From an uncultured Chromatiaceae bacterium (GTDB lineage: Bacteria; Pseudomonadota; Gammaproteobacteria; Tenderiales; Tenderiaceae): a stretch of 39,854 bases of DNA. The position numbers and the translations under genes were made by a program. Positions within the stretch are counted from its first letter, which is position 1; each line of letters begins with the position of its first letter. This document shows, in pieces, positions 7,428 to 33,127 of this stretch. The stretch lies in assembly GCA_945787735.1 (NCBI GenBank), contig CALZIQ010000001.1, forward strand, positions 1-39,854, read 5' to 3'. The notes under the pieces are model-generated. The model did no database searches. It had not been told where the DNA came from and saw nothing but the letters and a program-made list of their open reading frames with translations.

Positions 7428-7859
7428 TTGAGTCAGCCTCGTACTATGGCACGCCGTTGCGCCGTTCAGGCGCTTTATCAATGGCAAGTGACTGGCCAGA
7501 ATGTGGATGAGATCTACCAGCAGTTCCTGGTTGAGCGCAACATGACAAAGGTCAATGTCGAGATGTTCCAAGAGCTGCTCACTGGTGTTACTAAAGAGCT
7601 GGAAGTATTAGACCGAAAGATTCAGCCCTATCTTGATCGCGACATCTCCGAAGTGGATCCGGTCGAACGAGCGGTATTGCGCCTCGGCACATATGAGCTA
7701 ATGTACAAGCTTGATGTGCCTTACCGTGTTGTTATCAATGAAGCCTTGGAAGCGGTTAAGACGTTTGGCGCCGAGCAGGGTCATCGTTTCGTCAATGGTG
7801 TGCTGGACAAGGTTGCGCAAGAGTTGCGTGAACTGGAAGTAAAGCGCAATTCCCGATAA
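7428..7859 (+). CDS. nusB: transcription antitermination factor NusB
   Basis: NusB is a small all-helical RNA-binding protein that pairs with NusE (ribosomal protein S10) at boxA sites to prevent premature termination in rRNA operons. The N-terminal RRCAVQALYQWQVTG and the C-terminal YRVVINEALEAVKTFG with HRFVNGVLD are family signatures. The length is 143 residues. The start is TTG, preceded by a strong ribosome binding site (AAAGGAGA, 7413-7420) at normal spacing. An ATG in frame just downstream (MARRCAV) is less well placed. It follows ribH by 33 bases. Confidence 0.97.
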   Translation: MSQPRTMARRCAVQALYQWQVTGQNVDEIYQQFLVERNMTKVNVEMFQELLTGVTKELEVLDRKIQPYLDRDISEVDPVERAVLRLGTYELMYKLDVPYRVVINEALEAVKTFGAEQGHRFVNGVLDKVAQELRELEVKRNSR

Positions 7860-7882
7860 AAACATATGCTGCTGAGCGACAT

Positions 7883-7914
7883 CCTGACCTCTCCTGCGCA
7901 CGAGAGCGGTCGGG
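7883..7914 (+). other. hairpin in nusB-thiL spacer
   Basis: CCTGACC (7883-7889) pairs with GGTCGGG (7908-7914), with one T·G pair. TCTC/GAGA extends the stem inward across a two-base bulge. No T-run follows, so it is not a terminator. The conserved CUGAGA core of a TPP riboswitch is not present nearby. The role is unknown; it may stabilise or separate the mRNA between nusB and thiL. Confidence 0.3.
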
Positions 7915-7957
7915 GTGAGGAAAAAAGAGATTTCATTCATCCTGACAGAAATCCATC

Positions 7958-8926: not shown

Positions 8927-9398
8927 ACGCATTCCCGGCCTGAATCTGGCAAATCCGATTCATCTGCTGGCCTTCGGATTTGGTTCGGGTGTAATGCCCA
9001 AGGCACCAGGTACCTGGGGCACACTAGTGGCGGTTCCTATTTTTTTATTGCTGCAGGATTTGCCCATGATGGCTTATCTGGCGGTGGTCATGTTCACGGC
9101 TGTTGTGGGTGTTTGGTTGTGCCATGTGGCGGCCAAAGACTTAGGCGTGCATGATCATCCGGGTATTGTCTGGGATGAGATTGTCGGCTACCTGATTACC
9201 ATGATCGCAGCGCCACCTGGCTGGCTCTGGTTGCTAATTGGCTTTGTGCTGTTTCGGTTGTTCGATATTCTAAAACCTTGGCCAATTCGTGCCATTGACC
9301 ATGGTGTTGATGGTGGACTGGGCATCATGCTGGATGATATTCTCGCCGGCGTGATGGCGTTGGCCTGTCTACAGCTGTTGGCCTACTTCTTTTCTTAA
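8919..9398 (+). CDS. pgpA: phosphatidylglycerophosphatase A
   Basis: PgpA is an inner-membrane enzyme that dephosphorylates phosphatidylglycerophosphate to phosphatidylglycerol. The family motif GVMPKAPGTWGTL is at about residues 25-37, and IVWDEIVGYLITM provides the conserved acidic residues. Three or four hydrophobic segments are visible. The start is TTG, overlapping thiL by eight bases, with a GAAAGGA ribosome binding site inside thiL. The stop codon directly abuts the stop of the convergent GGDEF-EAL gene, leaving no room for a terminator between them. Confidence 0.95.
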   Translation: MIKRIPGLNLANPIHLLAFGFGSGVMPKAPGTWGTLVAVPIFLLLQDLPMMAYLAVVMFTAVVGVWLCHVAAKDLGVHDHPGIVWDEIVGYLITMIAAPPGWLWLLIGFVLFRLFDILKPWPIRAIDHGVDGGLGIMLDDILAGVMALACLQLLAYFFS

Positions 9399-16504: not shown

Positions 16505-18391
16505 ATGAGCAGTAATTACGACGCGTCCGCTATCGAAGTCCTCAGCGGTCTAGAGCCGGTGCGCAAACGCCCGGGTATGTACACCGATACCACCCGCCCT
16601 AATCACTTGGCCCAGGAGGTGATCGACAACTCGGTCGACGAGGCCATGGCGGGTCATGCCAAGAAGGTTGAGATCACCTTGTACAAAGACGGCTCGCTTG
16701 AGGTCAGTGACGACGGCCGCGGCATGCCGGTGGATATCCATCCCAAGGAAGGTGTTCCGGGTATCGAAGTGATTCTGACCAAGCTCCATGCCGGTGGCAA
16801 GTTTTCAAACAAAAATTATCAGTATTCCGGCGGTTTGCACGGCGTAGGTATCTCTGTGGTCAACGCGCTTTCCAAACACTTGGAGGTGTGGGTCAAGCGC
16901 GGTGGCCAGGAATACAACATCGCTTTTGCCAGCGGCCAAAAGGTTTCGGAGCTGGAGGTGGTGGGCAAGGTTGGCAAGCAAAATACCGGAACCCGGCTGC
17001 GTTTCTGGCCCGATGCCCAGTTCTTTGATTCGATCAATTTTTCGGTAAGTAAACTCAAGCATGTGTTACGTGCGAAGGCAGTGCTCTGCCCTGGTCTGCA
17101 TGTCAGCTTTTTTGATGAAAAATCGGGCGATACGGAAGAGTGGTATTACGAGGATGGCCTGAGCGATTACCTCGACTCTGCTTTGCAGGGGTTCAGCTTG
17201 TTACCGGAAGAGTTGTTCATCGGTGGTACAGCCTCTGCGCATGAGGCGGCCGACTGGGCCGTGGTGTGGCTGCCTGAAGGTGGCGAGCTAATTACCGAGA
17301 GTTACGTCAATCTGATTCCCACGGCCCAGGGTGGCACCCACGTGAATGGTCTGCGCACCGGCCTCACCGATGCCATTCGCGAGTTTTGTGAATTCCGCAA
17401 CCTGCTGCCGCGCGGCGTTAAGCTGGCGCCGGACGATGTCTGGGACAAGTGCGCCTATGTGCTGTCGGTGAAGCTGGAAGACCCCCAATTCAGCGGTCAG
17501 ACCAAGGAAAGACTTTCATCGCGTGAGTGCGCGCCGTTCATCTCCGGTGTGGTCAAGGACGCCTTCAGCCTGTGGCTCAACCAGCACACCGAGGCGGGCG
17601 AACAGATTGCCATGCTGGCAATTAGCAATGCGCAATCAAGAATGCGTGCCGGTAAAAAGGTGGTGCGTAAGAAGGTCACTTCGGGGCCGGCCCTGCCGGG
17701 CAAACTGGCCGATTGCAGTTCGCAGGACCTGGGTCGAACCGAGCTGTTTCTAGTGGAAGGGGATTCGGCCGGTGGCTCGGCCAAGCAGGCGCGTGATCGT
17801 GTCTATCAGGCCATCATGCCGCTGCGGGGCAAAATCCTGAATACTTGGGAGGTTGACTCGGCCGAGGTGCTGGGTTCTCAGGAAGTGCATGATATCTCGG
17901 TGGCTGTCGGCGTCGAGCCGGGTTCGGATGTGTTGAAGGGTCTGCGCTATGGCAAGGTTTGCATCCTCGCCGATGCCGACTCTGATGGTGCCCACATCGC
18001 CACGCTGCTGTGCGCGCTGTTTCTGCGCCATTTTCGCCCCTTGGTGGGTGCGGGTCATGTCTATGTCGCTATGCCACCATTGTTTCGTATTGACGTGGGC
18101 AAGCAGGTCTTCTATGCCCTGGATGAAGCGGAACGTCAGGGGGTGCTGGACCGCATCGCCGCTGACAAACTCAAAGGCAAGGTGTCGGTCCAGCGTTTCA
18201 AAGGGCTGGGTGAGATGAATCCATTGCAGCTGCGTGAAACCACCATCGATCCTGATACCCGCCGCCTGGTGCAACTCACCCTCGATAGCGGCGATGATAC
18301 CTATCAGATAATGGACATGCTGTTGGCTAAAAAGCGCGCCGCCGACCGACGTGCCTGGCTCGAGAGCAAGGGTAATCTGGCCGAAGTTTAA
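16505..18391 (+). CDS. parE: DNA topoisomerase IV subunit B
   Basis: ParE is the ATPase subunit of topoisomerase IV, which unlinks daughter chromosomes. The GHKL ATPase motifs are present: EVIDNSVDEAMAGHAK, DDGRGMPVDIHPKEG and GGLHGVGISVVNALS. The Toprim domain has EGDSAGGSAKQARDR, PLRGKILN and the metal-binding DADSDGAH. The length, 628 residues, matches E. coli ParE (630) and lacks the extra insert of gammaproteobacterial GyrB, so ParE is preferred to GyrB. The partner parC is in the same window about 12.5 kb downstream. The parE ATG has a poor ribosome binding site. Confidence 0.97.
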   Translation: MSSNYDASAIEVLSGLEPVRKRPGMYTDTTRPNHLAQEVIDNSVDEAMAGHAKKVEITLYKDGSLEVSDDGRGMPVDIHPKEGVPGIEVILTKLHAGGKFSNKNYQYSGGLHGVGISVVNALSKHLEVWVKRGGQEYNIAFASGQKVSELEVVGKVGKQNTGTRLRFWPDAQFFDSINFSVSKLKHVLRAKAVLCPGLHVSFFDEKSGDTEEWYYEDGLSDYLDSALQGFSLLPEELFIGGTASAHEAADWAVVWLPEGGELITESYVNLIPTAQGGTHVNGLRTGLTDAIREFCEFRNLLPRGVKLAPDDVWDKCAYVLSVKLEDPQFSGQTKERLSSRECAPFISGVVKDAFSLWLNQHTEAGEQIAMLAISNAQSRMRAGKKVVRKKVTSGPALPGKLADCSSQDLGRTELFLVEGDSAGGSAKQARDRVYQAIMPLRGKILNTWEVDSAEVLGSQEVHDISVAVGVEPGSDVLKGLRYGKVCILADADSDGAHIATLLCALFLRHFRPLVGAGHVYVAMPPLFRIDVGKQVFYALDEAERQGVLDRIAADKLKGKVSVQRFKGLGEMNPLQLRETTIDPDTRRLVQLTLDSGDDTYQIMDMLLAKKRAADRRAWLESKGNLAEV

Positions 18392-18530
18392 GCGTTGCAT
18401 TTACCACCAGCGAATCAGCTTCAATCTATGTGATCAGGCGTTAATCATCGGTCTATACTTAGTCTGTTACGGATGTGTAAATAGAGCTATTTAATTATAA
18501 GTCAATCATAATATTCTTAGGGGGAAGCTT

Positions 18531-20711
18531 ATGTCTGCCAATCTCGCACCTGTTTTATCACCAGAACTGCAAAAGATTGCCGAAGCCCGTCACCACGATC
18601 CATTTTCCGTGTTGGGTAGGCACAAGAACAATGGCATTACTGAGGTGCGAGCCTTCCTGCCTTATGCCGTTGAAGTGACACTGGCCGAAGGTGAGCGCTC
18701 GCTGCAGCGTATCGAGGGCAGTGACTTTTTTACCTGGCGCGGAGACGCGACTGACCTGCCCGAGCGCTACCGCTTGATTTGGCGCGATAAGGAATTGCGC
18801 GAGCATATCAGCCACGACCCTTATAGCTATCCAGCACAGATTTCTGATTTTGACCTGCACCTGTTTGGTGAGGGCAAACACCTGCATGCCTACCGTATTC
18901 TAGGTGCTCATGCCCATGAAGTGGACGGCACCGCCGGGGTATTGTTTGCCGTGTGGGCGCCCAATGCCGAGCGTGTCAGTGTCGTTGCCGATTTCAATCG
19001 CTGGGACGGTCGTTGCCATCCGATGCGAGTGCGGGGTGGCAGTGGTGTGTGGGAGCTGTTTATTCCTGATATCTCGCAGGGGGCTATGTATAAATTCGAG
19101 GTCCGCAACCGCGACACGGGGGAGATTCATTTAAAAACTGACCCCTATGGTCAGCAGTTTGAGATCCGCCCGCAGACGGCTTCCATTGTCGCCGCCAGCG
19201 ATTACGCCTGGAATGATCAGGCCTGGCTGGAACAGCGTAAACAACATGACTGGCAGCATCAGCCCATGTCGATCTATGAGGTCCACCTAGGTTCATGGCA
19301 GCACGGCCCGGAAGGTGAGTTGTTGAATTATCGTGAGCTGGCCCATCGCCTGGTGGCATACGTTAAGGAGCTGGGCTTCAGCCACATCGAGTTGTTGCCC
19401 ATTACCGAACATCCCTATGATCCTTCCTGGGGGTATCAGACCACGGGTTATTACGCCCCCAGCAGTCGCTACGGGTCGCCCGATGATTTTCGTTATTTCA
19501 TCGATTACTGCCATCAAAACGGCATTGGTGTGTTCCTCGATTGGGTGCCGGCCCACTTTCCCAAAGATGCCTTTGGCCTAGCGCGTTTTGATGGTGAAGC
19601 GGTATATGAACATGCCGATCCACGCCTCGGCGAACACATCGACTGGTCCACGCTGATTTTTAACTATGGTCGTCATGAGGTAAGAAACTTCCTGCTCTCC
19701 AGTGCCTTGTACTGGATCGAGGAGATGCATATCGATGGACTGCGCGTCGATGCGGTGGCCTCTATGCTTTATCTCGACTACTCTCGCGAAGAAGGCGAGT
19801 GGCTGCCCAATCAATATGGCGGCCGTGAAAATCTCGAAGCAATCGATTTTCTGCGCCAGCTCAACACGGCGGTGCATGAGCAACACCCGGGGGTGTTAAT
19901 GATGGCGGAAGAGTCCACCTCCTGGCCCATGGTTAGCCGCCCTGTGCATGTGGGCGGACTCGGTTTTGATATGAAGTGGAACATGGGCTGGATGAACGAC
20001 ACGCTAAGTTATATCGAAAACGAGGCGGTGCATCGCAAATATCATCACAACATGCTTACCTTCAGCATGCTCTATGCGTTTACCGAAAATTTTCTTTTGC
20101 CCTTTTCCCATGATGAAGTTGTACATGGCAAAGGCAACATGCTCAACAAAATGCCGGGCGACGAGTGGCAAAAGCACGCCAATCTGCGCCTGTTATATAC
20201 CTATATGTTCACCCATCCGGGTAAGAAACTGATGTTCATGGGCTGTGAGATCGGCCAAGGTGTAGAGTGGAATAGCGCCCAGACGCTGGACTGGTATGTG
20301 CTGGATTACCCCCTGCATCAGGGTTTAAAGCAATCGGTTTCGGATTTAAACCGTTTGTATCACAACACCCCAGCTCTGTATCACGATGAATTTGAATGGC
20401 AGGGGTTTGATTGGATCGATTGTAATGATGCCGATCAATCGGTGCTCAGCTACATGCGCAAGAACGGCGATGATTTTGTCATTGTGATTGTCAACTTCAC
20501 ACCGGTGTCGCGGCATGGCTATCGTATCGGTGTGCCGCGTGCAGGTGTTTATGAAGAGATCTTTAATTCAGATGCTGCCATTTATGGCGGCAGCAATCAG
20601 GGTAATGGTGGCAAACAACTCATTGCTGAAGAAATTCAATGGATGAATCAATCCCATTCGCTTGAACTGACGCTGCCACCCTTGGCGGGCATTGTATTAC
20701 GCCCAGCCTAA
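18531..20711 (+). CDS. glgB: 1,4-alpha-glucan branching enzyme
   Basis: GlgB cuts alpha-1,4-glucan chains and reattaches them as alpha-1,6 branches in glycogen. Residues about 10-110 form the N1 module typical of long GlgB proteins. A CBM48 module follows (about 120-210), then the GH13 barrel from about 250. Catalytic residues lie in [12 protein letters not shown] (Asp), MAEEST (Glu) and [11 protein letters not shown] (Asp). At 726 residues it matches E. coli GlgB (728). The ribosome binding site (AGGGGGAA, 18519-18526) is strong. glgX follows after 17 bases. No synthase or pyrophosphorylase is in the window. Confidence 0.98.
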
Positions 20712-20728
20712 TGCTGTCATAGCCGTCT

Positions 20729-22891
20729 ATGCCAATTCGTCAAGGTTCTATCGCAGTCTGGCCTGGCCAACCTTATCCCCTCGGCGCCACTTGGGATGGC
20801 GAGGGGGTGAACTTTGCCTTGTTCTCGGAACATGCCGAGAAGGTAGAGCTGTGTTTGTTTGATCCCAACGGTCGGCGCGTTATTCATACTATCGATGTGC
20901 GTTGGCAGACAGATCAGGTGTGGCACTGTTATTTACCTGAGGCCCACCCCGGCATGCTATATGGCTATCGTGTCTATGGGCCTTATGATCCGGCCAGCGG
21001 CCATCGATTTAATCCCAAAAAACTCTTGCTCGATCCTTATGCAAAGGATGTCTCCGGCCACCTGCGCTGGAGCGATGCCCTGTTTGGCTATCGCCTCGAT
21101 CATCCGGACAAGGATATGTCCATCGATCGGCGCGATAGTGCTGCCGGTATGCTTAAGTCGCGCGTGATTGACCCCGCCTTTACCTGGGGCGACGACAAAC
21201 TGCTGCGCACAGCTTGGCATGACACTGTGATCTACGAGCTGCATGTAAAGGGCTTCACCGCCCAGCATCCAGATATTCCCCCGCACTTGCGTGGTACTTA
21301 TGCAGGGTTGGCCTCGGCCCCAGCAATAGATCATTTGAAACGTCTGGGGGTCACCGCCGTTGAATTGATGCCGACCCACACCTTCATCGATGATCGTCAT
21401 CTGCTTGAGAAAGGCTTGAGAAATTATTGGGGCTATAACTCCATTGGTTTTTTTGCCCCGGAAGCGCGCTATTCGTCCAGTGGCAATATCAAAGAATTCA
21501 AGACCATGGTCAAACGCCTGCATTCAGAGGGCATTGAGGTAATTCTCGACGTGGTTTACAACCACACAGGTGAGGGCAACCATATGGGGCCGACACTCTG
21601 TTTTCGTGGTATCGATAACAGTGCCTACTATCGTGTCAGTCCTCAAGACAAGCGTTTTTACATGGATTTCACCGGCTGTGGCAATACACTCAACATGCAG
21701 CATCCCAGGGTGTTGCAGCTGATCATGGACAGTCTGCGCTACTGGGTGCTGGAGATGCATGTGGACGGTTTTCGTTTTGACTTGGCCTCGGCGCTGGCAC
21801 GCGAGCTTCATGCGGTGGATCGACTGGGGGCATTCTTCGACATCATCCATCAAGACCCAGTGCTGTCGCAGGTGAAACTGATCGCCGAACCCTGGGACCT
21901 GGGGGAGGGCGGTTATCAGGTTGGTAACTTTCCGGTCGGCTGGACCGAATGGAACGGTAAATACCGCGACACTATGCGCGCCTATTGGAAAGGTGATGGC
22001 GGTCTGATCGGTGACCTGGCCTTTCGTATGACTGGCTCAAGTGATCTCTATGAACACGGTGGCCGCCGGCCCTATGCCAGCATCAACTTTATCACTTGTC
22101 ACGACGGCTTTACTCTGCGTGATATGGTCAGTTACAACGAAAAACATAACCAAGCCAACGGCGAGGGCAATCGCGACGGCGAAAGTCATAACCTGAGTTG
22201 GAACTGCGGCGAGGAAGGCCCCACCAACAACCAGCACATCAATACCCTGAGGGGGCGTCAACAACGGAATTTTCTCGCCACACTGCTTCTATCCCAAGGT
22301 GTGCCCATGCTCACCGCGGGGGACGAGATGGGGCGGAGCCAGCAGGGTAACAACAATGCCTATTGCCAGGACAGCGATCTTACTTGGTTGGACTGGGACT
22401 TAGATAAGGAAAACAAACAGCTGTTGAAATTCGTGCAGCAGCTCATCCAACTACGCAAGCAACATCCCAGCTTTCGTCGGCGCTACTTTTTTCAGGGGCG
22501 CGATATCGTTGGTGCCGGGGTCAAGGATATCACCTGGCTTAGATCGACCGGGGGCGAAATGACGGACAAGGAATGGCATCAGTCGTTTGCGCGTTGTCTA
22601 GGTCTGTTTCTGGCTGGTGATGCAATGGATGAATATGACGAACGCGGTGAAAAGATCTCAGACGACAATATCATCCTCTTGTTTAATTCTCATCATGAGG
22701 ATATTCCTTTTGTGCTGCCTGCAGAACCCGCGCTGGCGCGTTGGCAAGTAGAGATCGATACCAGTGATGTTGATGGCCTTGGCAGCCTGGGGCGTTTGTA
22801 TCACGCTAATGAAAAATACCCGCTGCAAAGGCGCTCATTTGTTTTCCTGAAACAGCTCATCAGTCCACCCCTGCATTCCATGCTTTCATGA
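20729..22891 (+). CDS. glgX: glycogen debranching enzyme GlgX
   Basis: GlgX hydrolyses alpha-1,6 branches of limit dextrin, mainly short stubs left by glycogen phosphorylase. It has an N-terminal CBM48 module (PLGATWDGEGVNFALFSE), then a GH13 barrel with GFRFDLASAL (nucleophile Asp), AEPWDLGEGGYQVG (Glu) and TCHDGFTLRDMVSYN (Asp). The long loop NEKHNQANGEGNRDGE is typical of GlgX/TreX. At 720 residues it is somewhat longer than E. coli GlgX (657). It is probably co-transcribed with glgB. I see no good terminator after it. Confidence 0.97.
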   Translation: MPIRQGSIAVWPGQPYPLGATWDGEGVNFALFSEHAEKVELCLFDPNGRRVIHTIDVRWQTDQVWHCYLPEAHPGMLYGYRVYGPYDPASGHRFNPKKLLLDPYAKDVSGHLRWSDALFGYRLDHPDKDMSIDRRDSAAGMLKSRVIDPAFTWGDDKLLRTAWHDTVIYELHVKGFTAQHPDIPPHLRGTYAGLASAPAIDHLKRLGVTAVELMPTHTFIDDRHLLEKGLRNYWGYNSIGFFAPEARYSSSGNIKEFKTMVKRLHSEGIEVILDVVYNHTGEGNHMGPTLCFRGIDNSAYYRVSPQDKRFYMDFTGCGNTLNMQHPRVLQLIMDSLRYWVLEMHVDGFRFDLASALARELHAVDRLGAFFDIIHQDPVLSQVKLIAEPWDLGEGGYQVGNFPVGWTEWNGKYRDTMRAYWKGDGGLIGDLAFRMTGSSDLYEHGGRRPYASINFITCHDGFTLRDMVSYNEKHNQANGEGNRDGESHNLSWNCGEEGPTNNQHINTLRGRQQRNFLATLLLSQGVPMLTAGDEMGRSQQGNNNAYCQDSDLTWLDWDLDKENKQLLKFVQQLIQLRKQHPSFRRRYFFQGRDIVGAGVKDITWLRSTGGEMTDKEWHQSFARCLGLFLAGDAMDEYDERGEKISDDNIILLFNSHHEDIPFVLPAEPALARWQVEIDTSDVDGLGSLGRLYHANEKYPLQRRSFVFLKQLISPPLHSMLS

Positions 22892-23251
22892 TTTTATCGC
22901 AGTAGCGTAAGTACATAACAAACTTCTAATTCCCTTGTTTTAAAGTAATAACAATATTTAACAATTAGCCAGGTATATTAATCTTTCCTTCATTTCTGGG
23001 ACATAAACATGTCTCAGTAATTCCCCAAAACGTTTGAAGTTTGAGTGTTTTTTTGCAGAACTCGATGAGTTTACTGCTTCTTCATTCATGGGTTTCTCAT
23101 GTTTCCTTTAAATAACTGCTTATTGCGTAAGATTTCTTATTAAAGATTTTGTTTTACGCGACGTTATTTGTTTTGCGTGGAATTACAGGAAGCAAGTTTT
23201 TTGCATGGTAATTACCACAGCAGCAATGGATTGGAAAAAAAGGTCAGCAAA
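22892..23251. other. AT-rich gap, glgX / chemoreceptor
   Basis: This is a 360-base AT-rich stretch without a convincing gene. It contains a short palindrome (GACAT-AAAC-ATGTC, 22998-23011 approximately), and a stem GCGTAA/TTACGC (23125-23130/23154-23159) that overlaps a sigma-28-like promoter. No terminator for glgX is clear. An open frame does run from a TTG at 23168 into the chemoreceptor, but the residues it would add look like translated leader. Confidence 0.45.
23141..23167 (+). promoter_or_regulatory. sigma-28-like promoter before chemoreceptor
   Basis: TAAAGATT (23141-23148) is separated by exactly 11 bases from GACGTTAT (23160-23167). The flagellar sigma-28 consensus is TAAAGTTT-N11-GCCGATAA. 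The -35 matches 7 of 8 and the -10 about 5 of 8. Initiation near 23174 would leave a leader of about 78 bases to the chosen ATG. The weak -10 keeps confidence moderate. Confidence 0.35.
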
Positions 23252-24883
23252 ATGATCATGAATTTTGAACGATTTCTTGGCAGATTCAGTTGGCGTACCA
23301 AGATTCTGGCGCTAACGGGCATTATGTCGCTCGGTAGCGTAGCAGTCGGTGCGATGGGGGCTTATTCCATACTCAACCTGAGCAAGCAAGTGAATAAGGC
23401 CAATGCCAGCGCCGCTGTGCGAATGAACACAGTGGAAGATGCACAGTTTGCTTTGCTGAGAATGGGCATTGCCCAGACCGAGGTGATTGCCCGTGTCGAT
23501 AAAAAAGAAATCAGAGTAGCCTCAGTAGCTGCCATCAAGGCCGCCAGTGATCTGGATGAAAAGCTCGCTAAGCTGCGTGAAGTATTACCCGAAGATGCCA
23601 ACGTAGCTGAGTTACAGCAGCTGGTGAAAGAGATCAATCCAAAACGAATGGAAGTGATCAAGCTGGCGCGCAAAGACAGAGACTTGGAAGCACTGCGGGC
23701 ATTGGAAGTGATGGAGCCACTGTTTCGCAGAGTGGATGAATTGTCCGAAACCGTTATCAATGAACAGCGAATAGCGATGGACAACCAGTTAGTCGAGATT
23801 GAAGATGCTGGTACGAATACAGTTTATATGCTGATGATTTTTGTAGCCGTGAGTTTTGCCGTGAGTGTTGCCTTGAGTTTGATTCTGGCTCGCTTTGCTG
23901 TGAAACCCATGTTTGCCCTGGAGAAGGCCATGCAGTCGCTTTCAGAAGGTGATCTCTGCATGAAACTGGAAACCGGCGCCAAAGACGAAGTTGGGCGAAT
24001 GGTCAATGCCATGAGTAAAACAGTCGGCGATCTTCATTCTATTGTTACTAATATCTATGCCGGCACCGAGACGCTTGGTACCCAGTCTGAGAGTGTGGCC
24101 CAAACCGCCGATAGTATTCACGATGTTTCCACTCGACTGCACAGCAGTGTGAAAGATATCAAGCAAGATGCTGAAATTGTGAACTCCACGACGCAAGGTG
24201 CAGTAGCAGAGCTGGAGCGTGCTGCAATGAGAGCACAGCAGTCTGCTGATACATCGGAGAGCATGGCACATAAAATCAATGATACGGCTGTCAGTTTTGA
24301 ACGCTTCCAGGAAAATATGGAACACACCGCCCAGGTAACGCGCGAATTGTCTGATACAGCAGACACCATTACTGCGATTACCAAAACCATTCGTGACATC
24401 TCATCCCAGACCAATCTGTTGGCCTTGAATGCCGCGATCGAGGCAGCTCGTGCCGGTGAGCAGGGGCGTGGGTTTGCCGTGGTGGCAGATGAAGTGCGTC
24501 AATTAGCATCAAGAACAGAAGATGCCACTTCAGAGATTTCAGGCCTGGTCGAAACCATTTCAAGCAGTGTTGGCAATGCCGTGCAAATGCTTGAAGGCTC
24601 TGTAAATGAATCACGCGAGAATATCGAGCGTCTGAAGAGTGTGTCAGATGAGACCTCGCTGAGTCGTGATCAGTCGGTACACCTGCGTGATGCGATGCAT
24701 GAGGTGGTACAGATGATTGGAGAGCAGGAACGTGCAGTAAATGGAATTAATGATGCTGTTAATTCATTGGTTGACTTGAGTGATGAAACGAATAGTCAGA
24801 TCGAGTTGTTACATGGTCTGTCAGGAGAATTGAACGGTGCTGCCACCGATCTTGGTCACGTGGTAGACAAATTCAAATTGTAA
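23252..24883 (+). CDS. methyl-accepting chemotaxis protein
   Basis: This transmembrane chemoreceptor signals to CheA/CheW. I start at MIMNFERF (543 residues); the 28 upstream residues in frame are unlike a receptor N-terminus. TM1 is about 16-41. A periplasmic domain of roughly 145 residues, all helical and resembling a four-helix bundle, follows. TM2 is about 188-214, then HAMP. The cytoplasmic hairpin tip is intact ([20 protein letters not shown] and [15 protein letters not shown]). There is no C-terminal NWETF-like tether. The gene ends 43 bases before the MauG-like gene in the same direction, suggesting that it might sense redox state or a substrate of that cluster. The ligand is not identifiable. 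Confidence 0.95.
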
Positions 24884-24926
24884 ATATTTTGGTGATATGG
24901 AGTTATCTCTTTTTAAGGAGGAGTTC

Positions 24927-25979
24927 ATGAAACACAGTACTTTCAGTCAGAAAACTCTGGCAAACAAAATTGCAACAGCCGTAGTTAGTATGACTGTAGC
25001 ACTAGGCGCAACAACTGTAATGGCAGCCTCTATGCAACCCAGCGCTGAGGATGTTAGTAAATATCTTCGCCCGATGGAGGTGCCTCAAGGTAAAAATAAC
25101 ATCAGTACTCCAGAGCGTGTTGAGCTGGGTAAGTTCCTGTTTTTTGATCCACGTCTTTCAGGCTCAAACTTCATCAGCTGTGCTACCTGTCATAATCCAG
25201 CACTGGGTTGGTCTGATGCACAGCCTACCGCTGTTGGTCATGGTATGGATATTCTGGAACGTTCAACGCCGACTATTCTGAATACCGCCTATCAGCGTTT
25301 TCAATTCTGGGATGGTCGTGAGCGTTCGCTGGAAGATCAAGCGTTGGGTCCAATCATCGCCGGCGGCGAGATGGCTCAGGATATGGATACTCTGATTGTT
25401 GAGTTGAAAGCAATCCCGGGTTATGTCGACATGTTTGAGGCAGCGTACCCAGGTGAAGGTGTTACGCCTGATGGTATCGCTAAGGCAATCTCGGCCTTCG
25501 AACGCACAGTGGTCTCCACCGACTCCAACTTTGATCGTTGGTTGAAAGGTGTTGATGGCGCAATGAGCAAAGAGGCGCTTAAAGGCTTTGAAGTGTTTAA
25601 AGGCAAAGCCAACTGTACAGCTTGTCATGACGGTTTTAACTTCAGTGATAATGGCTTTCACAATGTCGGTTTGAAGGGTATGGAAGATCCTGGTCGTTAT
25701 GCCATCAAACCTATCAAGGTTCTAAAGGGTGCTTTCAAAACGCCAACCCTGCGTGATGTCGCATTGACCGCACCATATATGCACAACGGTGCTTACAACA
25801 CGCTGGAAGAGGTTGTGGATCATTACGATGCTGGCGGTTTTGAGAATGCCGGTACATTGGATCCAAATATGAAGCCTTTGAAGCTGAGCAAGAAAGAGAA
25901 AAAGAATCTGGTCGAGTTTTTGAAGTCATTGACCGGTGACCCGATGGAAGTAACTGTGCCTGTGCTGCCAGTTGAATAA
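24927..25979 (+). CDS. MauG/CcpA-family diheme cytochrome c
   Basis: This exported diheme protein belongs to the bacterial cytochrome c peroxidase/MauG family. I start at MKHSTF (350 residues) after a strong AAGGAGGA site. A signal peptide ends near VMAA. Heme motifs are CATCH (C85-H89) and CTACH (C230-H234). Family stretches FLFFDPRLSG, FWDGRERSLEDQA, FKTPTLRDVALTAPYMHNG and TLEEVVDHY are present. In CcpA the high-potential heme's Met ligand lies after the LEE helix start. Here the matching position appears to be Tyr300 in DHY, as in MauG, which uses tyrosine. I infer a MauG-like redox or modification role rather than simple peroxidase, but an H2O2-reducing role is possible. It is first of five consecutive exported redox genes. 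Confidence 0.9.
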   Translation: MKHSTFSQKTLANKIATAVVSMTVALGATTVMAASMQPSAEDVSKYLRPMEVPQGKNNISTPERVELGKFLFFDPRLSGSNFISCATCHNPALGWSDAQPTAVGHGMDILERSTPTILNTAYQRFQFWDGRERSLEDQALGPIIAGGEMAQDMDTLIVELKAIPGYVDMFEAAYPGEGVTPDGIAKAISAFERTVVSTDSNFDRWLKGVDGAMSKEALKGFEVFKGKANCTACHDGFNFSDNGFHNVGLKGMEDPGRYAIKPIKVLKGAFKTPTLRDVALTAPYMHNGAYNTLEEVVDHYDAGGFENAGTLDPNMKPLKLSKKEKKNLVEFLKSLTGDPMEVTVPVLPVE

Positions 25980-26010
25980 GGATAGTTAAGGTAAGTAAAG
26001 GAGAATATTC

Positions 26011-26346
26011 ATGTTAAGCAAAAAAACTGTTGCAGCGGCGCTGGTTACTTTGTTTATGTCTGCTTCGGCAAGTGCGGCAGATATTACGGTGGCGCAGAAT
26101 AACAAGTCGTTCAAGAAAGATGGTGCCCAGATCGAGGCTATGACCATTAATGCCGGGGATACGATTCACTTTAAGAATGAAGACCCGTTTTTCCATAACA
26201 TCTTCTCATTGTCAGATCTAAAGACATTTGACCTCGGTTCTTATCCGGCTGGCGAATCAAAGGCAGTTACCTTTGATCAACCGGGCGAGGCCGAGATTGA
26301 ATGTGCCATTCATCCTGAGATGTACATGGTTATCGAGGTTAAATGA
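26011..26346 (+). CDS. amicyanin-like cupredoxin
   Basis: This is a small periplasmic type-1 copper protein of 111 residues, with a signal peptide cut after SASA (about residue 22). Probable copper ligands are His62 (PFFHN), Cys98, His101 and Met104 in CAIHPEM. The short C-x2-H-x2-M spacing resembles amicyanin; plastocyanin and azurin use longer loops. It should carry single electrons between periplasmic partners. It is preceded by a GGAG-type site, 31 bases after the MauG-like gene. Its TGA overlaps the ATG of the next cytochrome (ATGA), implying coupled translation. No methylamine dehydrogenase gene is present, so its partner is more likely one of the neighbouring cytochromes. Confidence 0.9.
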   Translation: MLSKKTVAAALVTLFMSASASAADITVAQNNKSFKKDGAQIEAMTINAGDTIHFKNEDPFFHNIFSLSDLKTFDLGSYPAGESKAVTFDQPGEAEIECAIHPEMYMVIEVK

Positions 26347-27014
26347 TGAGATTGCCATTATTTATGGCAGGCATGATGGCGCTGGTCTTGTCGGCCGGCG
26401 CCATTAGTATCACACATGCTAAAACTGACTCACGCAAGGATATCAAGGCGGCCAAATCAAAGCCATTGATACGCGGTGGCATTGTGTATAAAAGCTATTG
26501 TGTTCTTTGTCATGGTGAACGGGGAGATGGCATGGCCCGGGCAACCAAGCTGTATGGTCAGGGAAATCTGTTGATTAGCATGGATGATCACAATTATGAA
26601 TACTACGAAAAACTTATTCGCGAAGGTGGTTTGCCGCTTGGGCGTTCGAGGTATATGCCAGCCTATGAAGATGAGTTGTCGGAAGAACAGATCGGTGATG
26701 TGATGGAGTATCTTTATATTGTCAATGATCCGGTTTCCCGCGGCGAAATGGTATTTATGACTAATTGCATTCTTTGCCATGGCGTGAAAGGGAACGGCAA
26801 GGGAAGGGCATCAGTGATGTACGACCCTCCGCCTGCTGATCTTACTCGCAGTGATAAGAATGATGATTATAAACGCATGATTATTACTATGGGTGGGGCT
26901 GCGATGGGCCGTTCAGAAGTGATGCCTGAATGGGGTTTGCAATTGAAAGACCAAGAGATTGAAGATGTTATTGCGTATCTTCGGACTATTCTGGTGGCTT
27001 CACCGGGAAAATAA
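26343..27014 (+). CDS. diheme c-type cytochrome (module AB)
   Basis: This 223-residue periplasmic cytochrome has a signal peptide ending near SITHA. The first heme module (A) has CVLCHG (C53, C56, H57) and probable axial Met105 (RYMPAY). The second (B) has CILCHG (C142, C145, H146), the motif DPPPADLTRS, and probable axial Met194 (EVMPEWG). The same A-then-B order recurs in the next two genes. A short charged stretch (DSRKDIKAAKSK) precedes module A. Start at 26343 overlaps the cupredoxin stop; the adjacent ATG at 26346 is equally possible. I infer electron transfer; no enzyme domain is visible. Confidence 0.92.
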   Translation: MMRLPLFMAGMMALVLSAGAISITHAKTDSRKDIKAAKSKPLIRGGIVYKSYCVLCHGERGDGMARATKLYGQGNLLISMDDHNYEYYEKLIREGGLPLGRSRYMPAYEDELSEEQIGDVMEYLYIVNDPVSRGEMVFMTNCILCHGVKGNGKGRASVMYDPPPADLTRSDKNDDYKRMIITMGGAAMGRSEVMPEWGLQLKDQEIEDVIAYLRTILVASPGK

Positions 27015-29150
27015 TTAGCGCTGGGAATCTGCAATGAATCGAGTGAAAGTTGTTGCAAAGAATTTTAATATTATCCGGGTATTGCTTGTTAGCTTTCTCG
27101 CGATGATGGTTTTAGTGGGTCAGAGTTATGCGGCCGTCGAAGAGGTTGATGACAGAGACAGTCGCAAAGAGATTCGAAATGTAACGCAGGCCGCCAAGGA
27201 AAGGAACAAGCAGGCAACGCGTGGGGCGGTTGTCTACAAAGCCTATTGTGTGCTTTGTCATGGTGCAGAAGGCACAGGTGGTTCGCGCATGAACAGGCTG
27301 CATAATAGCGTCAATCTCAAAATTTCCAATCTAAGCGCTTATGGCTATGACGAGATCATTCGCAAGGGCGGTGCGGCGGTAGGGCGTTCTGAATTTATGC
27401 CGGCCTGGCAAAGCGAACTCACCGACGAACAAATTGAAGATGTTGTAGTTTATCTGGCTTTGCTGAATGACTCTGTACGTCGTGGTGAGGTGGTATTTAA
27501 GACCAATTGCATTCTTTGTCATGGTGTTGATGGTGAGGGTAAAGGACGTGCGTCTGGTTTCTATGATCCTCCCCCCTCCGATCTGACGCGGAGTGTCAAG
27601 AATGATGCATATAAAAAAATGATCATTACTCAAGGTGGCGAAGCCATGGGGCGTTCAGCAGGTATGCCAGTCTGGGGAGGGCAATTGAGTGAGCGTGAAA
27701 TTAATGATGTCGTAGCGTATCTGGGGACGATCTCGGAATCGAAGCGTAAAACACAAATGGCGAGCAACTTTGTTGCTGCCGAAATGAAAGACGATAAAAA
27801 AAATAGACGATCCAAGAAAAGAAAATCTCATGATGAGACGCAGTCAATAATTCAGAGTACAAAACTAAAAACACATCAGGTGCAGCGTGGTGGGTTGGTA
27901 TATAAGGCTTATTGTGTGCTTTGCCATGGCGCGCAAGGCAAGGGCGGCTCCCGTATGACCAAGTTGCATGGTGATCTACAGTTGGAAATAACCAAGCAGT
28001 CGCCTGAATATTATGAAACTGTTATTCGTGGTGGTGGTGAAGCAGTGGGCCAATCAGAGTTTATGCCTACTTGGGGCGATGAATTAACAGACGAGCAAGT
28101 TAACGACGTGGTGGCCTATTTGTCGCTTTTGAATGATCCTATTCGTCGTGGTGATGTTGTGTTTAAGACCAATTGTATTCTGTGTCATGGCATTAAGGGT
28201 GATGGCAAAGGACGTGCCGCAGTTTTGTTTGATCCGCCACCTGCCGATTTAACCCGCAGTGAGAAAAATGACGACTACAAACGCATGATTATCACCTTGG
28301 GAGGTGCCGCTATGGGACGTTCAAGCGTGATGCCCCAGTGGGGACTTGAGTTAGATAAAAATGAAATCGATGATGTAGTGGACTATTTGAGAACAATTTC
28401 GATAGTGCCAACTTCCAATTAACTGAATGGAATAAATGTATCAAGAGGATGTTCATGATTGGAACTAAGAATGGAAGAAAACAGCAAGGAATTTTGGCTG
28501 TCATTTTAATAGGTATTTTTGCGATAGCAGCACCGGTCGGGCAAACATATGCAACTGATGAGTTGGATGCTGACACGGCAAAGCAGCTTAAGAAAGAGAT
28601 TAGGGCTACCCGCAAAGAAATTCGTAAGGTGATGGCTCAAGCTAAAGATAAGACCAAACAGGCGGTTCGCGGAAGCCTGGTATATAAGGCCTACTGTGTT
28701 TTATGTCATGGAAACAAGGGTGACGGCAATGCCCGTATGACCAAAATGCATGGCAACCTGCCGCTAAAAATTTCCAAGCAGGCGCCTGAATATTATAAAA
28801 AAATAGTAGTTGGAGGTGGCCTGGCTGTAGAGCGCTCCGAGTTTATGCCGGCTTGGCAAGATGAACTGTCTGAAGAGCAAATTGACGACTTGGTGATGTA
28901 TCTGAGTATGATTACAGACCCGGTTAGTCGTGGGGAAATCGTGTTTAAGACGAGCTGCATTCTTTGTCATGGTGTAAATGGAGATGGCATGGGGCGCGCA
29001 TCAGTGCTATTTGATCCGCCCCCGGCCGATCTAACCAAGAGTGACAAGAATGACCTGTATAAGAAAATGATTATTACCATGGGCGGTGAGGCTATGGGCC
29101 GCTCACCCGTAATGCCCATCTGGGGCCAGGAGCTGAGTGAGGCGCAAATC
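26478..29150 (+). repeat. dispersed two-heme coding modules (four AB copies)
   Basis: Four consecutive copies of an A+B heme unit occur: one in the first cytochrome, two in the second and one in the third. Each runs from VYK-x2-C-VLCHG through FMP-x-W, R-R/S-GE-VF, CILCHG, DPPPADLT and MIIT-GG-AMGRS to the final MP-x-WG. The DNA around the B heme (ATTCTTTGTCATGG or close variants near 26768, 27513, 28174 and 28960) is almost unchanged among copies. This indicates fairly recent duplication or gene conversion. Confidence 0.8.
27034..28422 (+). CDS. tetraheme c-type cytochrome (modules ABAB)
   Basis: This 462-residue exported protein has a signal peptide ending near QSYA. It has four CxxCH sites: CVLCHG (C72-H76), CILCHG (C159-H163), CVLCHG (C294-H298) and CILCHG (C381-H385). 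Probable axial methionines are Met122, Met211, Met344 and Met433, each followed by Pro. It is a tandem duplication of the diheme unit in the neighbouring genes. The halves are joined by a lysine/arginine-rich linker (about 240-285; KKNRRSKKRK). Together the halves could form a four-heme wire. The basic linker may bind an acidic partner or surface. It follows the previous gene by 19 bases. Confidence 0.92.
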   Translation: MNRVKVVAKNFNIIRVLLVSFLAMMVLVGQSYAAVEEVDDRDSRKEIRNVTQAAKERNKQATRGAVVYKAYCVLCHGAEGTGGSRMNRLHNSVNLKISNLSAYGYDEIIRKGGAAVGRSEFMPAWQSELTDEQIEDVVVYLALLNDSVRRGEVVFKTNCILCHGVDGEGKGRASGFYDPPPSDLTRSVKNDAYKKMIITQGGEAMGRSAGMPVWGGQLSEREINDVVAYLGTISESKRKTQMASNFVAAEMKDDKKNRRSKKRKSHDETQSIIQSTKLKTHQVQRGGLVYKAYCVLCHGAQGKGGSRMTKLHGDLQLEITKQSPEYYETVIRGGGEAVGQSEFMPTWGDELTDEQVNDVVAYLSLLNDPIRRGDVVFKTNCILCHGIKGDGKGRAAVLFDPPPADLTRSEKNDDYKRMIITLGGAAMGRSSVMPQWGLELDKNEIDDVVDYLRTISIVPTSN

Positions 29151-29207
29151 GAGGATGTGGTGCAGTATTTGCGCTCGATTCTGACGGTGCCTTATCCCGT
29201 CGAATAG
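28455..29207 (+). CDS. diheme c-type cytochrome (module AB)
   Basis: This is the third member of the cytochrome family, 250 residues from MIGTKNG. That start is preferred to the ATG six bases upstream, because the AAGAGG site touches the upstream one. A signal peptide ends near QTYA. A long charged helix (about 40-70, RKEIRKVMAQAKDK) precedes CVLCHG. The CILCHG module follows, with DPPPADLTKS. Probable axial methionines lie in EFMPAW and PVMPIWG. It ends the redox gene run, with a strong terminator 24 bases after its stop. Similarity to the tetraheme protein is high at DNA level around the heme motifs. Confidence 0.92.
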   Translation: MIGTKNGRKQQGILAVILIGIFAIAAPVGQTYATDELDADTAKQLKKEIRATRKEIRKVMAQAKDKTKQAVRGSLVYKAYCVLCHGNKGDGNARMTKMHGNLPLKISKQAPEYYKKIVVGGGLAVERSEFMPAWQDELSEEQIDDLVMYLSMITDPVSRGEIVFKTSCILCHGVNGDGMGRASVLFDPPPADLTKSDKNDLYKKMIITMGGEAMGRSPVMPIWGQELSEAQIEDVVQYLRSILTVPYPVE

Positions 29208-29230
29208 TCGGTTTATTAGTTCGCACTGAT

Positions 29231-29258
29231 AAAGGGATGGCTTGCTATCCCTTTTTTT
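29231..29258 (+). terminator. Rho-independent terminator of cytochrome operon
   Basis: AAAGGGAT (29231-29238) pairs with ATCCCTTT (29247-29254). Two more pairs narrow the loop to CTTG, and a run of seven T residues ends the structure (29252-29258). It lies 24 bases after the last cytochrome stop. It separates that operon from the ompA-like gene. Confidence 0.9.
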
Positions 29259-29295
29259 ATAAATGTAAATCTTTGCAAATGCCCGTTAATTAGCA

Positions 29296-29324
29296 TTGTT
29301 TTACTGATTCCCTCTGCGTATATT
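29296..29324 (+). promoter_or_regulatory. sigma-70 promoter of OmpA-family gene
   Basis: TTGTTT (29296-29301), a 17-base spacer, and TATATT (29319-29324) form a good housekeeping promoter. The leader would be about 70 bases and contains a GCCCA/TGGGC hairpin (29343-29347/29356-29360). A strong GGGGA ribosome binding site follows. This fits an abundant outer-membrane protein. Confidence 0.6.
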
Positions 29325-29401
29325 AGCAGCGACTTTGGGGGTGCCCATTTTTTGTTGGGCTAATAACCAAATCGATCACTACTTACCTGGGGAAATATAA
29401 A

Positions 29402-30703
29402 ATGAAAAAATTCACTCTTTTACCGTTGGTTTCAGTTCTGGGGCTGACCGTTTCTGCCACCGCCATTGCTGAAGATCAATGGTATTTTGCACCAAGCCTT
29501 TCTTATGTTCTTGCTGACGATGATCGAGTCGCGGACGATGATTTTGGCTTACAGCTTGGTGTTGGTCAGGTGATCAATGAATCCTGGAACATCGAGTTCA
29601 GTGCTGTTATGGATACACTGGACTTGGAAAGCGGAGCAGGTGAATACAAACAGCGTGGTATCCAGGTTGATGGTCTGTATTTCTTCGACCGTGACCGCAG
29701 CATCGACCCTTACCTGGTCGGTGGTATCGGTGGCCTGCAGACCAAGCTAGGCACTAACAAAGACACCAACATGATGGCGAACGTGGGTGCTGGTGTGATG
29801 CACATGATCGGCGACAGCATCAGTCTGCGTGCCGATGCCCGTTACCGCTTGGATGATGATGACAAGAGCGTCGCAATGGAAGATCGCTTTGGCGACTGGA
29901 TTGTGAATATCGGTCTGGCTATTCCGTTTGGTGGCAGCAAGGCTGCGCCTGCAGCGGCACCAGTTGCCGCGGCAATGGCAGAGCCAGAGCCGGTGGTAAT
30001 GGATAGTGATGGTGACGGCGTGTCGGATGCAAATGACCGTTGTAAGAATACGGTTGCCGGTGCCAAGGTTAATGCCAACGGTTGTGAAGTCGACAGCGAC
30101 AAGGATGGTGTGGTCGATCGCATGGATCGTTGCCCAGCGACACCTGCAGGTGCCAAGGTTGACGCCAAAGGTTGTGAACTGGATGGTGATAAGGACGGTG
30201 TCGTTGATCGTCTTGACCGTTGCCCATCAACCCCGGCCGGCGTGAAGGTTGATGCCAAGGGTTGCGAACTCGACTCTGACAAAGATGGTGTGCGTGATAG
30301 TGCAGACCGTTGTGCCAATACTGCAGCGGGTGTGAAGGTCGATGTGAAGGGTTGTGAAATTCAGGATGTGATTGTGCTGAAAGGTGTTAAATTCAACTCC
30401 GGTTCGGCTGATCTGACTGAAGGCTCCAAGACTGAGCTGAATGAGGTTGCTGCAACTCTGAAGAAGCATGCTGAGCTGAAGGTGGAAGTGGGTGGTTATA
30501 CCGATAACACCGGTTCGCGCGCTTTCAATGTGTCTCTGTCTCAACGTCGTGCCCAATCAGTAGTTGATTATCTGGTCAGCCAGGGTGTAAATGCCGGCAA
30601 TTTGTCTGCCAAGGGTTATGGCCCGGCCAGCCCAATCGCGGATAACGGCACCGCCGCAGGTCGTGCTGAGAACCGTCGTGTGGAGCTGCATATCGCTCAA
30701 TAA
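29402..30703 (+). CDS. OmpA-family outer-membrane protein with TSP3 repeats
   Basis: This 433-residue outer-membrane protein has a signal peptide ending AIA/ED (residue 23). A beta-barrel domain spans about 25-178, followed by an Ala/Pro linker. Then come four exact 30-residue repeats (201-230, 231-260, 261-290, 291-320). Each has the calcium-binding pattern DxDxDGVxD and the cysteine pair DRC and GCE. The C-terminal OmpA domain (about 325-433) has the peptidoglycan-binding residues in GYTDNTGS and NRRVEL. The layout resembles OprF-type porins with a longer repeat stalk. It should anchor the outer membrane to the cell wall. It has its own promoter and terminator. Confidence 0.95.
   Translation: MKKFTLLPLVSVLGLTVSATAIAEDQWYFAPSLSYVLADDDRVADDDFGLQLGVGQVINESWNIEFSAVMDTLDLESGAGEYKQRGIQVDGLYFFDRDRSIDPYLVGGIGGLQTKLGTNKDTNMMANVGAGVMHMIGDSISLRADARYRLDDDDKSVAMEDRFGDWIVNIGLAIPFGGSKAAPAAAPVAAAMAEPEPVVMDSDGDGVSDANDRCKNTVAGAKVNANGCEVDSDKDGVVDRMDRCPATPAGAKVDAKGCELDGDKDGVVDRLDRCPSTPAGVKVDAKGCELDSDKDGVRDSADRCANTAAGVKVDVKGCEIQDVIVLKGVKFNSGSADLTEGSKTELNEVAATLKKHAELKVEVGGYTDNTGSRAFNVSLSQRRAQSVVDYLVSQGVNAGNLSAKGYGPASPIADNGTAAGRAENRRVELHIAQ
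30002..30361 (+). repeat. four 90-bp tandem repeats in the OmpA-like gene
   Basis: Four in-frame 90-base units encode thrombospondin type 3-like calcium repeats. The central two units are the most alike at DNA level. Each unit has three aspartates in DxDxDG plus two cysteines. Units of this kind can be gained or lost by slippage, so stalk length may vary among strains. Confidence 0.85.
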
Positions 30704-30727
30704 ACAGCCCGCAATATAATCCCCCTT

Positions 30728-30766
30728 AGGGCGGGTTCGGTCTTCTGATCGTGCCCGCCCTTTTTT
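30728..30766 (+). terminator. Rho-independent terminator of OmpA-like gene
   Basis: AGGGCGGG (30728-30735) pairs with CCCGCCCT (30754-30761). An inner GGTC/GATC stem lies in the loop, and T residues follow to 30766. It is 25 bases after the stop codon and before parC. Confidence 0.9.
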
Positions 30767-30811
30767 ATTGCCCGTACTTTGTTCGAAACTCTTTTTGACG
30801 CTCATGCCCTT

Positions 30812-30837
30812 CCGGCTTGGCTATGAGCCGGTATAAT
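30812..30837 (+). promoter_or_regulatory. candidate parC promoter with palindrome
   Basis: TATAAT (30832-30837) lies 34 bases before the parC ATG. An inverted repeat, CCGGCT (30812-30817) and AGCCGG (30826-30831), fills the spacer directly before it. The expected -35 position has no good hexamer. A TTGACG at 30795-30800 is 31 bases away, too far. The palindrome could be a regulator site compensating for a weak promoter. Confidence 0.4.
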
Positions 30838-30871
30838 GGCCCGCTTGAATTAACTGCAGACTGAGATTCAG

Positions 30872-33127
30872 ATGAGTGATCAACCCCGCCAGGACCAGGG
30901 CATAGAGCAACTTCCGCTCAAAAGCTTTACCGAAAAGGCCTATCTCGACTATTCAATGTACGTCATTCTCGACCGTGCACTGCCCAATATCGGTGATGGT
31001 CTAAAGCCGGTGCAACGTCGCATTGTTTATGCAATGTCTGAGCTGGGCCTGTCGGCCACAGCCAAATTCAAAAAATCAGCTCGAACTGTCGGTGACGTGC
31101 TGGGTAAGTTTCATCCCCACGGCGACTCGGCCTGCTACGAGGCCATGGTGTTGATGGCGCAGCCTTTCTCTACCCGTTATGCCTATGTAGATGGCCAGGG
31201 CAATTGGGGCTCACCGGATGATCCCAAGTCGTTTGCCGCCATGCGTTACACCGAATCACGCCTGGCACCGTATTCCGAATTGCTGTTGAGCGAGGCCTCG
31301 CAGGGCACGGTGGACTGGGTGCCTAATTTCGATGGTACTTTGGAAGAGCCCTCGGTGCTGCCTGCCCGCGTGCCGAATGTGTTGCTCAATGGAACAACGG
31401 GTATTGCTGTTGGCATGGCAACCGACATTCCGCCGCACAACATGCGTGAGGTGGTGAGCGCATGTATCCGCTTGCTGGATGAGCCAAAGGCCGATTTGTC
31501 TGCCCTGTGTGAACATGTGCAGGGGCCTGATTATCCCACCGAGGCGGAGATTATTACTCCACGCGCCGATATTCGCAAAATGTATGAAACAGGCAATGGC
31601 AGCATTCGTATGCGCGCTGTGTTTGAACGCGAAGACGGCGACATCATTGTCACCGCGTTACCGCACCAGGTTTCCGGTGCCAAGGTGCTGGAGCAGATAG
31701 CCCAACAGATGAACGCCAAAAAGCTGCCCATGGTGGAGGACCTGCGTGACGAGTCCGATCACGAAAACCCAACACGGCTGGTGATCACGCCGCGTTCCAA
31801 TCGCGTCGATGTGAAAGCACTGATGTCGCACCTGTTCGCCAGCACCGATCTGGAACGAACCTACCGGGCCAATTTCAATGTGATCGGCATCGATGGCCGT
31901 CCACAAGTGAAAAATTTACACCAGATCCTGAAAGAGTGGCTTGAATTCCGTACCGAGACTGTGCGTCGTCGTTTGCAGCATCGCTTGGATAAGGTGAATC
32001 GTCGCCTGCATCTGTTGGAAGGTTTGTTGATTGCGTTCCTGAATATCGACGAAGTGATTCACATCGTCCGCACCGAAGACGAGCCGAAGAAAGTGCTGAT
32101 GAAACGCTTCGCTCTCTCTGCAGAACAAGCCGACTACATCCTCGACACCAAACTGCGTCAATTGGCCCGTCTGGAAGAGATGAAGATTAAGGCCGAGCAG
32201 GAAGAATTGGCCAAGGAACGCGACATGTTGGAGAAAACCCTGGGCTCGAAACAGCGCATGAAGACGTTAATTCGAAAAGAATTGATGGCCGATGCCGAAC
32301 AGTACGGCGACGACCGGCGATCACCAATTGTTGAGCGGGTTGCCGCCGAGGCGATGGATGAAACGGCACTGACCCCGGCCGAGCCGGTTACGGTGGTGTT
32401 ATCGGAAAAGGGCTGGGTGCGTTCAGGCAAAGGGCATGAGCTCGATCCGAATAGCATGAGCTATAAGGCTGGCGATGGTTTCCTCTCTGCCGCGCGTGGC
32501 CGCAGCAATCATTTGGCGGTATTCATCGATTCAAGTGGCCGTTGTTATGGTGTGCCTGCCCACACATTGCCTTCAGCGCGAGGGCAAGGCGAACCCCTTA
32601 CCGGGCGTCTTAATCCGCCGGCCGGGGCGACCTTTGTTGCTGTGATGATGGGGGCGGAGAGTGATCGTTACCTATTGGCCTCGGATGCCGGCTACGGTTT
32701 TGTCGTCAAGCTGGGTGATCTGATGGCCAAGAACAAAAACGGCAAGGCGATCCTGAATGTGCCCAAGGGCGCGCGGGTGTTGCCGCCGACACCGGTTAAG
32801 GATGTGGTTAGCGATGTGGTGACTGCGGTGACAACTGAAGGGCGCATGCTGGTCTTCCCGTTGACTGAGTTGCCCGAATTAAGTAAGGGTAAAGGTAATA
32901 AGATTATCTCTATTCCATCAGCGCGTGTCGCCAGCCGTGAGGAGTATGTGGTGGCCATCAACAGCGTGCCTGCAGGCGAGAAATTGACTCTGTTCTGCGG
33001 TCAGCGCCATACCACCTTTAAATCATCCGACCTGGAACACTATCAGGGTGAGCGCGGTCGTCGTGGTAACAAACTGCCACGCGGATTTCAGCGCGTGGAT
33101 CGCGCCTCTGTGGGTGATGAGTCGTAG
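30872..33127 (+). CDS. parC: DNA topoisomerase IV subunit A
   Basis: ParC is the DNA-cutting subunit of topoisomerase IV. The winged-helix and tower core has [31 protein letters not shown] and [13 protein letters not shown], with catalytic Tyr126. The positions equivalent to E. coli ParC Ser80 and Glu84 are Ser86 and Glu90, the usual quinolone-sensitive residues. The C-terminal pinwheel domain begins near residue 500. The length is 751 residues, almost identical to E. coli ParC (752), and the GyrA-box is absent, so ParC is preferred over GyrA. Its TAG stop lies within a palindromic repeat shared with the convergent SulP gene. It partners with ParE from this window. Confidence 0.97.

Follow-up and report, generated by a model that had tools for sequence, protein, structure and literature searches.

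What a periplasmic chain of ten hemes and one type-1 copper site is for, and where the unit that encodes it begins, are the questions raised by five consecutive exported genes at positions 24927-29207 of the window, that is, the whole stretch of 39,854 nucleotides analysed here (contig CALZIQ010000001.1 of an uncultured Chromatiaceae bacterium, GTDB family Tenderiaceae). All five lie on the forward strand and encode a diheme enzyme of the CCP_MauG family (CCP), a cupredoxin (CUP) and three c-type cytochromes (CYTa, CYTb and CYTc). An earlier note, made from the sequence alone, had described five exported redox genes with ten hemes and a type-1 copper centre, and the open reading frames (ORFs), the ten CxxCH motifs (2, 0, 2, 4 and 2 in gene order) and the copper ligands of CUP bear this out. 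The same note let the set begin at 24927 and regarded it as a self-contained chain, and both points have to be revised. The conserved unit begins one gene earlier, with a chemoreceptor (MCP) at 23252-24883, whose sensor is specific for this module and which belongs to the unit in most carriers. The reading favoured here, to which a probability of roughly one half is given, is that the redox proteins form an oxidant-consuming periplasmic chain, the activity or redox state of which is read by this dedicated receptor.

A chemoreceptor conserved beside the redox genes

The conserved core of the unit consists of MCP, CCP, CUP and one or two diheme cytochromes (CYT). In a first survey of relatives, the arrangement MCP-CCP-CUP-CYT was present in every locus with intact flanks, in the window's family as well as in other families of the class, and the flanking genes vary between families: in two of them, the window's own and f82, the module lies near parE and parC, and at other positions elsewhere. 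The idea that relatives share the five-gene order holds for this core but not for the exact five-gene set, which is rare and was seen in two genomes.

A scan of genome contigs with exact peptide patterns, which miss divergent copies, yielded 39 named loci, nearly all from Gammaproteobacteria; the titles Terriglobia and Klebsiella (L089, L093) may be binning or labelling errors. All 39 are titled as metagenome-assembled genomes (MAGs), which would explain why the module has been missed so far. These loci come partly from the same genomes as the class genomes considered below, which makes the two sets overlapping rather than independent, and most of the genomes compared are drafts. On 35 contigs with complete CCP, CUP and CYT genes, an MCP with a homologous sensor, recognized by a sensor profile, accompanies the redox genes in 32, being placed upstream on the same strand in 27, upstream and divergent in two, and downstream on the same strand in three. 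CUP is present at locus L048 (the same locus as L075), and a plasmid collection gave only weak CcoP-type matches.

Searching with the sensor alone is a stronger test, because the redox genes are not its starting point. When the sensor of the window MCP was used as query against 95 relatives, 15 genomes were matched, with one copy each and every copy at the module; three genomes of the same family (G002, G004 and G007; completeness 77-88%) showed neither a cytochrome match nor the sensor. Among 369 genomes of the class, a sensor profile matched 24, again with one copy each, across 13 families, and 23 of these 24 copies have CUP no more than about 4 kb away, the one in G294 being a short remnant; the exception, in G304, has a contig end nearby. 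The co-occurrence of sensor and CUP in the 369 genomes corresponds to a Fisher p of 3e-28 with kinship ignored, and CUP itself is broader than the MCP (about 32 class genomes at E <= 1e-30). Since the eight carrier genomes in which MCPs were counted hold only 6-18 each, chance adjacency of an MCP would be a sub-percent event per neighbour, and the pattern is not that of a generally MCP-rich neighbourhood. What this adjacency demonstrates is that linkage is under selection; it does not demonstrate contact. Because the heme and copper genes almost always stand beside a dedicated receptor, these bacteria may sense the state of a redox reaction outside the inner membrane and use it for steering.

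The enzyme, the cupredoxin and the cytochromes

CCP (24927-25979, forward strand) starts at an ATG preceded by AAGGAGG, which gives an exported protein of 350 amino acids with two CxxCH motifs and a score of 192 bits against CCP_MauG (PF03150). Its nearest solved structures are bacterial cytochrome c peroxidases (bCcP; 4aal and 3hq6, E 1e-65 to 1e-64), which we take to be Geobacter MacA, and its alignment with 4aal is gap-free across the GHG loop, the FWDGR motif and the Gln and Glu of the pocket. H105, W128, Q138, P142, E148 and Y300 (350-residue numbering) are invariant in 13 relatives. The peroxidatic pocket of bCcP, composed of a loop His, Trp, Gln and Glu, is present as H105, W128, Q138 and E148; by spacing, these residues and P142 correspond to His71, Trp94, Gln104, Glu114 and Pro108, respectively, of the P. 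aeruginosa enzyme. This pocket is common to CCP and bCcP, whereas the Met ligand on the second, electron-transfer heme of bCcP is replaced by Tyr300. Tyr300 aligns with Tyr294 of MauG and would provide the axial Tyr of a six-coordinate heme, so that CCP resembles MauG and MbnH in the axial Tyr of its second heme and in a Trp between the hemes. It differs from both in retaining His105, in having no cognate substrate protein and in scoring below the curated cut-offs, with 315.7 bits for tryptophan tryptophylquinone-forming MauG (TIGR03791, cut-off 443.85) and 214.2 bits for MbnH (TIGR04039, cut-off 362.85). Judged by its residues, CCP is a bCcP/MauG hybrid, and by the tests made it is a member of neither group; the label 'MauG-like' fits one ligand position, but the enzyme as a whole is nearest to bCcP. 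At L053:4719-5795 (genome G000, contig C39), a CCP paralogue from this subfamily, which has the His-Tyr motif, stands alone, with no MCP, CUP or CYT nearby.

CUP (26011-26346, forward strand; Pfam Copper-bind, 30 bits) carries the copper ligands His62 and C98-x2-H101-x2-M104, which are invariant in 13 relatives, and its structural model (predicted local distance difference test, pLDDT, 88.5) matches amicyanin, the cupredoxin domain of NirK and a Nitrosopumilus cupredoxin in the PDB. The short C-x2-H-x2-M ligand loop and the fold make it an amicyanin-like type-1 cupredoxin, as had been proposed, although its identity to amicyanin is 16-21% and its partner is probably not methylamine dehydrogenase. 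The small subunit of that enzyme (PF02975) was not found in 14 carrier genomes in a search that had no positive control (G000 is 89% complete), in line with the remark that the redox set comes without this dehydrogenase, and methylamine oxidation is not favoured as a function. No Trp is invariant in CUP.

The cytochromes CYTa (26343-27014), CYTb (27034-28422) and CYTc (28449-29207), all on the forward strand, are built from pairs of CcoP-type c domains and contain two, four and two Pfam Cytochrome_CBB3 units, respectively. CYTa and CYTc are exported diheme proteins, and CYTb is a tetraheme cytochrome consisting of two tandem CYT-type diheme halves. The tetraheme form occurs only in the window genome and in the Tenderia-like genome G005, and both halves from both genomes form one group in a tree (support 99/93); on this phylogeny, CYTb is the product of a duplication that preceded the split of the two genomes. 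A role as the CcoP subunit of a cbb3 oxidase was rejected, as all three proteins (59.2, 149.1 and 70.7 bits) fall below the curated cut-off of TIGR00782 (179.95 bits).

What the receptor may read

MCP (forward strand, 543 amino acids) comprises a first transmembrane helix (TM1), a periplasmic four-helix sensor (about residues 43-190), a second transmembrane helix, a HAMP domain and an MCP signalling domain, which is the domain content of a four-helix-bundle chemoreceptor (Pfam MCPsignal, 122 bits; 4HB_MCP_1, 31 bits; HAMP also matched). The AlphaFold2 model of residues 1-216 is a four-helix bundle (pLDDT 87), and the nearest PDB folds to the sensor are the sensor domains of MCP2201, Vc1313 and PcaY_PP; with E-values of 4e-3 and weaker, the modelled sensor may resemble those for amino acids and organic acids. 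Residues 1-215 contain no Cys, His or CxxCH, and the Pfam search gave no PAS match, so that neither of the usual marks of a receptor with its own redox cofactor, an FAD-binding PAS domain or a heme motif, is seen. With neither Cys nor His in the sensor, any redox cue has to be supplied by a partner or a small molecule. A conserved apical docking site was also considered; conservation over the sensor was not clearly apical, and this argument is not used.

Aer, CetAB and the Geobacter heme MCPs share with this receptor an MCP output and a presumed redox cue. Aer is described as sensing through FAD, and GSU0582 and GSU0935 of Geobacter through a c-type heme (PMC9668731, PMC2628428, PMC3460858), whereas the present sensor, free of Cys and His, is encoded beside separate redox proteins. 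In the mechanism favoured here, which we infer for the core MCP-CCP-CUP-CYT (expanded in its CYT part to 2+4+2 hemes in the window), CYT and CUP would supply CCP with electrons drawn from the respiratory chain, and CCP would reduce a periplasmic oxidant, most likely H2O2. The MCP sensor, which lacks cofactor ligands of its own, may read the redox state or the occupancy of a module protein; the simplest contact would be the docking of CUP or CYT on the four-helix sensor, in analogy to binding proteins on Tar. The signal would then pass to CheA, and the cell would move or alter its attachment according to periplasmic oxidant or electron load. A more tentative possibility is that this is a new receptor class in which soluble periplasmic redox proteins serve as ligands, namely the cupredoxin or the diheme cytochrome, after being charged by the peroxidase-like CCP. 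If this were true, cells could take their direction from the electron load beyond the inner membrane, near cathodes, minerals or peroxide sources for example. Redox receptors are known mainly with the cofactor inside the receptor system, and a receptor linked to a heme-copper chain of separate proteins would connect behaviour with electron flow in the periplasm in another way.

Several observations weigh against such coupling. Four-helix-bundle sensors normally bind small molecules, and a small molecule may for this reason be what the MCP senses. No such MCP accompanies CCP, CUP and CYT in at least seven loci (L066, L080, L089, L164, L166, L168 and L169), which means that the redox part can occur by itself; in G304, the MCP is present and CUP is not. 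The association with flagella is weak, FliG being found in 12 of 15 carriers versus 38 of 80 other genomes (p = 0.025). CheA and FliG were found in most carriers; G091 gave no match to FliG or to CheA dimerisation, but contains a Wsp-like cyclic di-GMP cluster. An assembly gap could explain what G091 lacks, and the output need not be swimming, since this genome shows only the Wsp-like cluster with its GGDEF regulator. Such clusters, seen at L212:3083-12826 (G091) and L213:1667-11492 (G003), both in module carriers, comprise MCP, CheW, CheR-like, CheW, CheA-response regulator, CheB and response regulator-GGDEF genes, Pfam having covered part of them, and their MCP contains one CxxCH.

The best placed of the alternatives, although itself rather unlikely, is plain oxidant defence, in which CCP removes H2O2 with electrons from CYT and CUP while a co-regulated but independent MCP senses a small molecule of the niche. 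The closeness of CCP to solved bCcP structures with the catalytic residues kept, the likeness of the sensor to the small-ligand sensors named above and the loci without MCP all agree with this; the Tyr in place of the classical bCcP Met ligand does not, and 23 of 24 sensors at the module, in three arrangements, exceed what sharing a niche needs.

A second alternative is that the chain serves as a conduit for electrons taken up from outside the cell, at cathodes or minerals. In Candidatus Tenderia electrophaga, a cupredoxin, a tetraheme and two diheme genes, the same combination as in the window, were singled out as a 'putative electron transfer complex' with no function assigned, and the transcriptome of Eddie and colleagues showed these three cytochrome genes differentially expressed with electrode potential (PMC5371394). 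The description of the cluster as uncharacterised was thus nearly right, four of its five genes having already been noticed. The main text of that paper mentions no peroxidase or diheme enzyme, receptor, chemotaxis or conservation beyond Tenderia, and no paper combining all module genes was found, a broader search of titles and abstracts also returning nothing. G005, a member of the window's genus, is probably Ca. Tenderia electrophaga, because its three triheme genes and 11-heme gene follow the order of Tel_16515-16545 and its cyc2-like gene has a position consistent with Tel_03480. MCP and CCP are encoded in G005 at about 282.7-285.5 kb. The isolate name of one carrier MAG, which includes 'Biocath', also fits a conduit. 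The idea nevertheless appears improbable: the cluster encodes no outer-membrane porin-cytochrome, the carriers extend across 13 families with MAG sources that are not obviously cathodic, a strong cyc2 match occurs in only two carriers (G005 and G008; that of G006 is short and partial), and cyc2 is also present in the non-carriers G002 and G045. A link to cyc2-dependent iron or electrode oxidation was rejected, as module and cyc2 are not correlated. A chain read by its own receptor would, in turn, reinterpret the published, unexplained expression response of the Tenderia cytochromes and, with the genus of a cathode-growing bacterium among the carriers, would offer a gene set for how electroautotrophs find or hold electron sources.

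Cofactor maturation as by MauG or MbnH, with CCP oxidising a Trp or Tyr of CUP, CYT or the receptor into a modified cofactor, is very improbable: Tyr300 and the conserved inter-heme Trp128 would suit it, but CCP scores below both cut-offs and keeps the invariant loop His105, the dehydrogenase subunit was not found in the search described above, no MbnP-like partner is among the cluster genes, CUP lacks a Trp that is invariant, and W14, the single Trp of the window sensor, lies at TM1.

Gene layout and variant loci

The MCP stop codon lies 43 bp ahead of the CCP start in the same direction, and no terminator-like site was seen in this gap. CCP and CUP are separated by 31 bp, CYTa and CYTb by 19 bp, and CYTb and CYTc by 26 bp; CUP and CYTa overlap by four bases, ATGA, at 26343-26346, as the earlier note had stated. 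The terminator placed at the end of the set is also found, as a consensus match on the forward strand at 29231-29254 (AAAGGGATggcttgctATCCCTTT-TTTT), in which a hairpin of 10 pairs, the longest stem found, precedes a T tract; the number of terminator-like sites in the scan was not above that of shuffled sequences, and a promoter scan gave no site exceeding the shuffle level. Signal peptides of the exported proteins were judged by eye. In the window, parE and parC enclose the module within 16505-33127, and glgB, glgX and an OmpA gene are found there too.

Loci without the module MCP sometimes adjoin other signalling genes. At L170, a NIT-HAMP-GGDEF-EAL protein (7018-9891) is encoded directly 3' of CCP-CUP, at the position held by CYT in other loci; at L169, a histidine kinase adjoins the redox genes; and at L176, a kinase and a response regulator, judged by eye, adjoin CUP. 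L161 and L170 contain CCP and CUP only. An apparent CYT-CCP fusion with three CxxCH motifs adjoins CUP at L176:5086-6435, and probably another at L172:3313-4689. At L066, a short ORF (4725-4972) with a module-type sensor fragment stands directly before CCP and looks like a decayed receptor, and a different, sCache-like MCP is encoded farther upstream. At L077:4851-7310, a complete module is immediately followed by two more copies of CCP and one divergent CUP.

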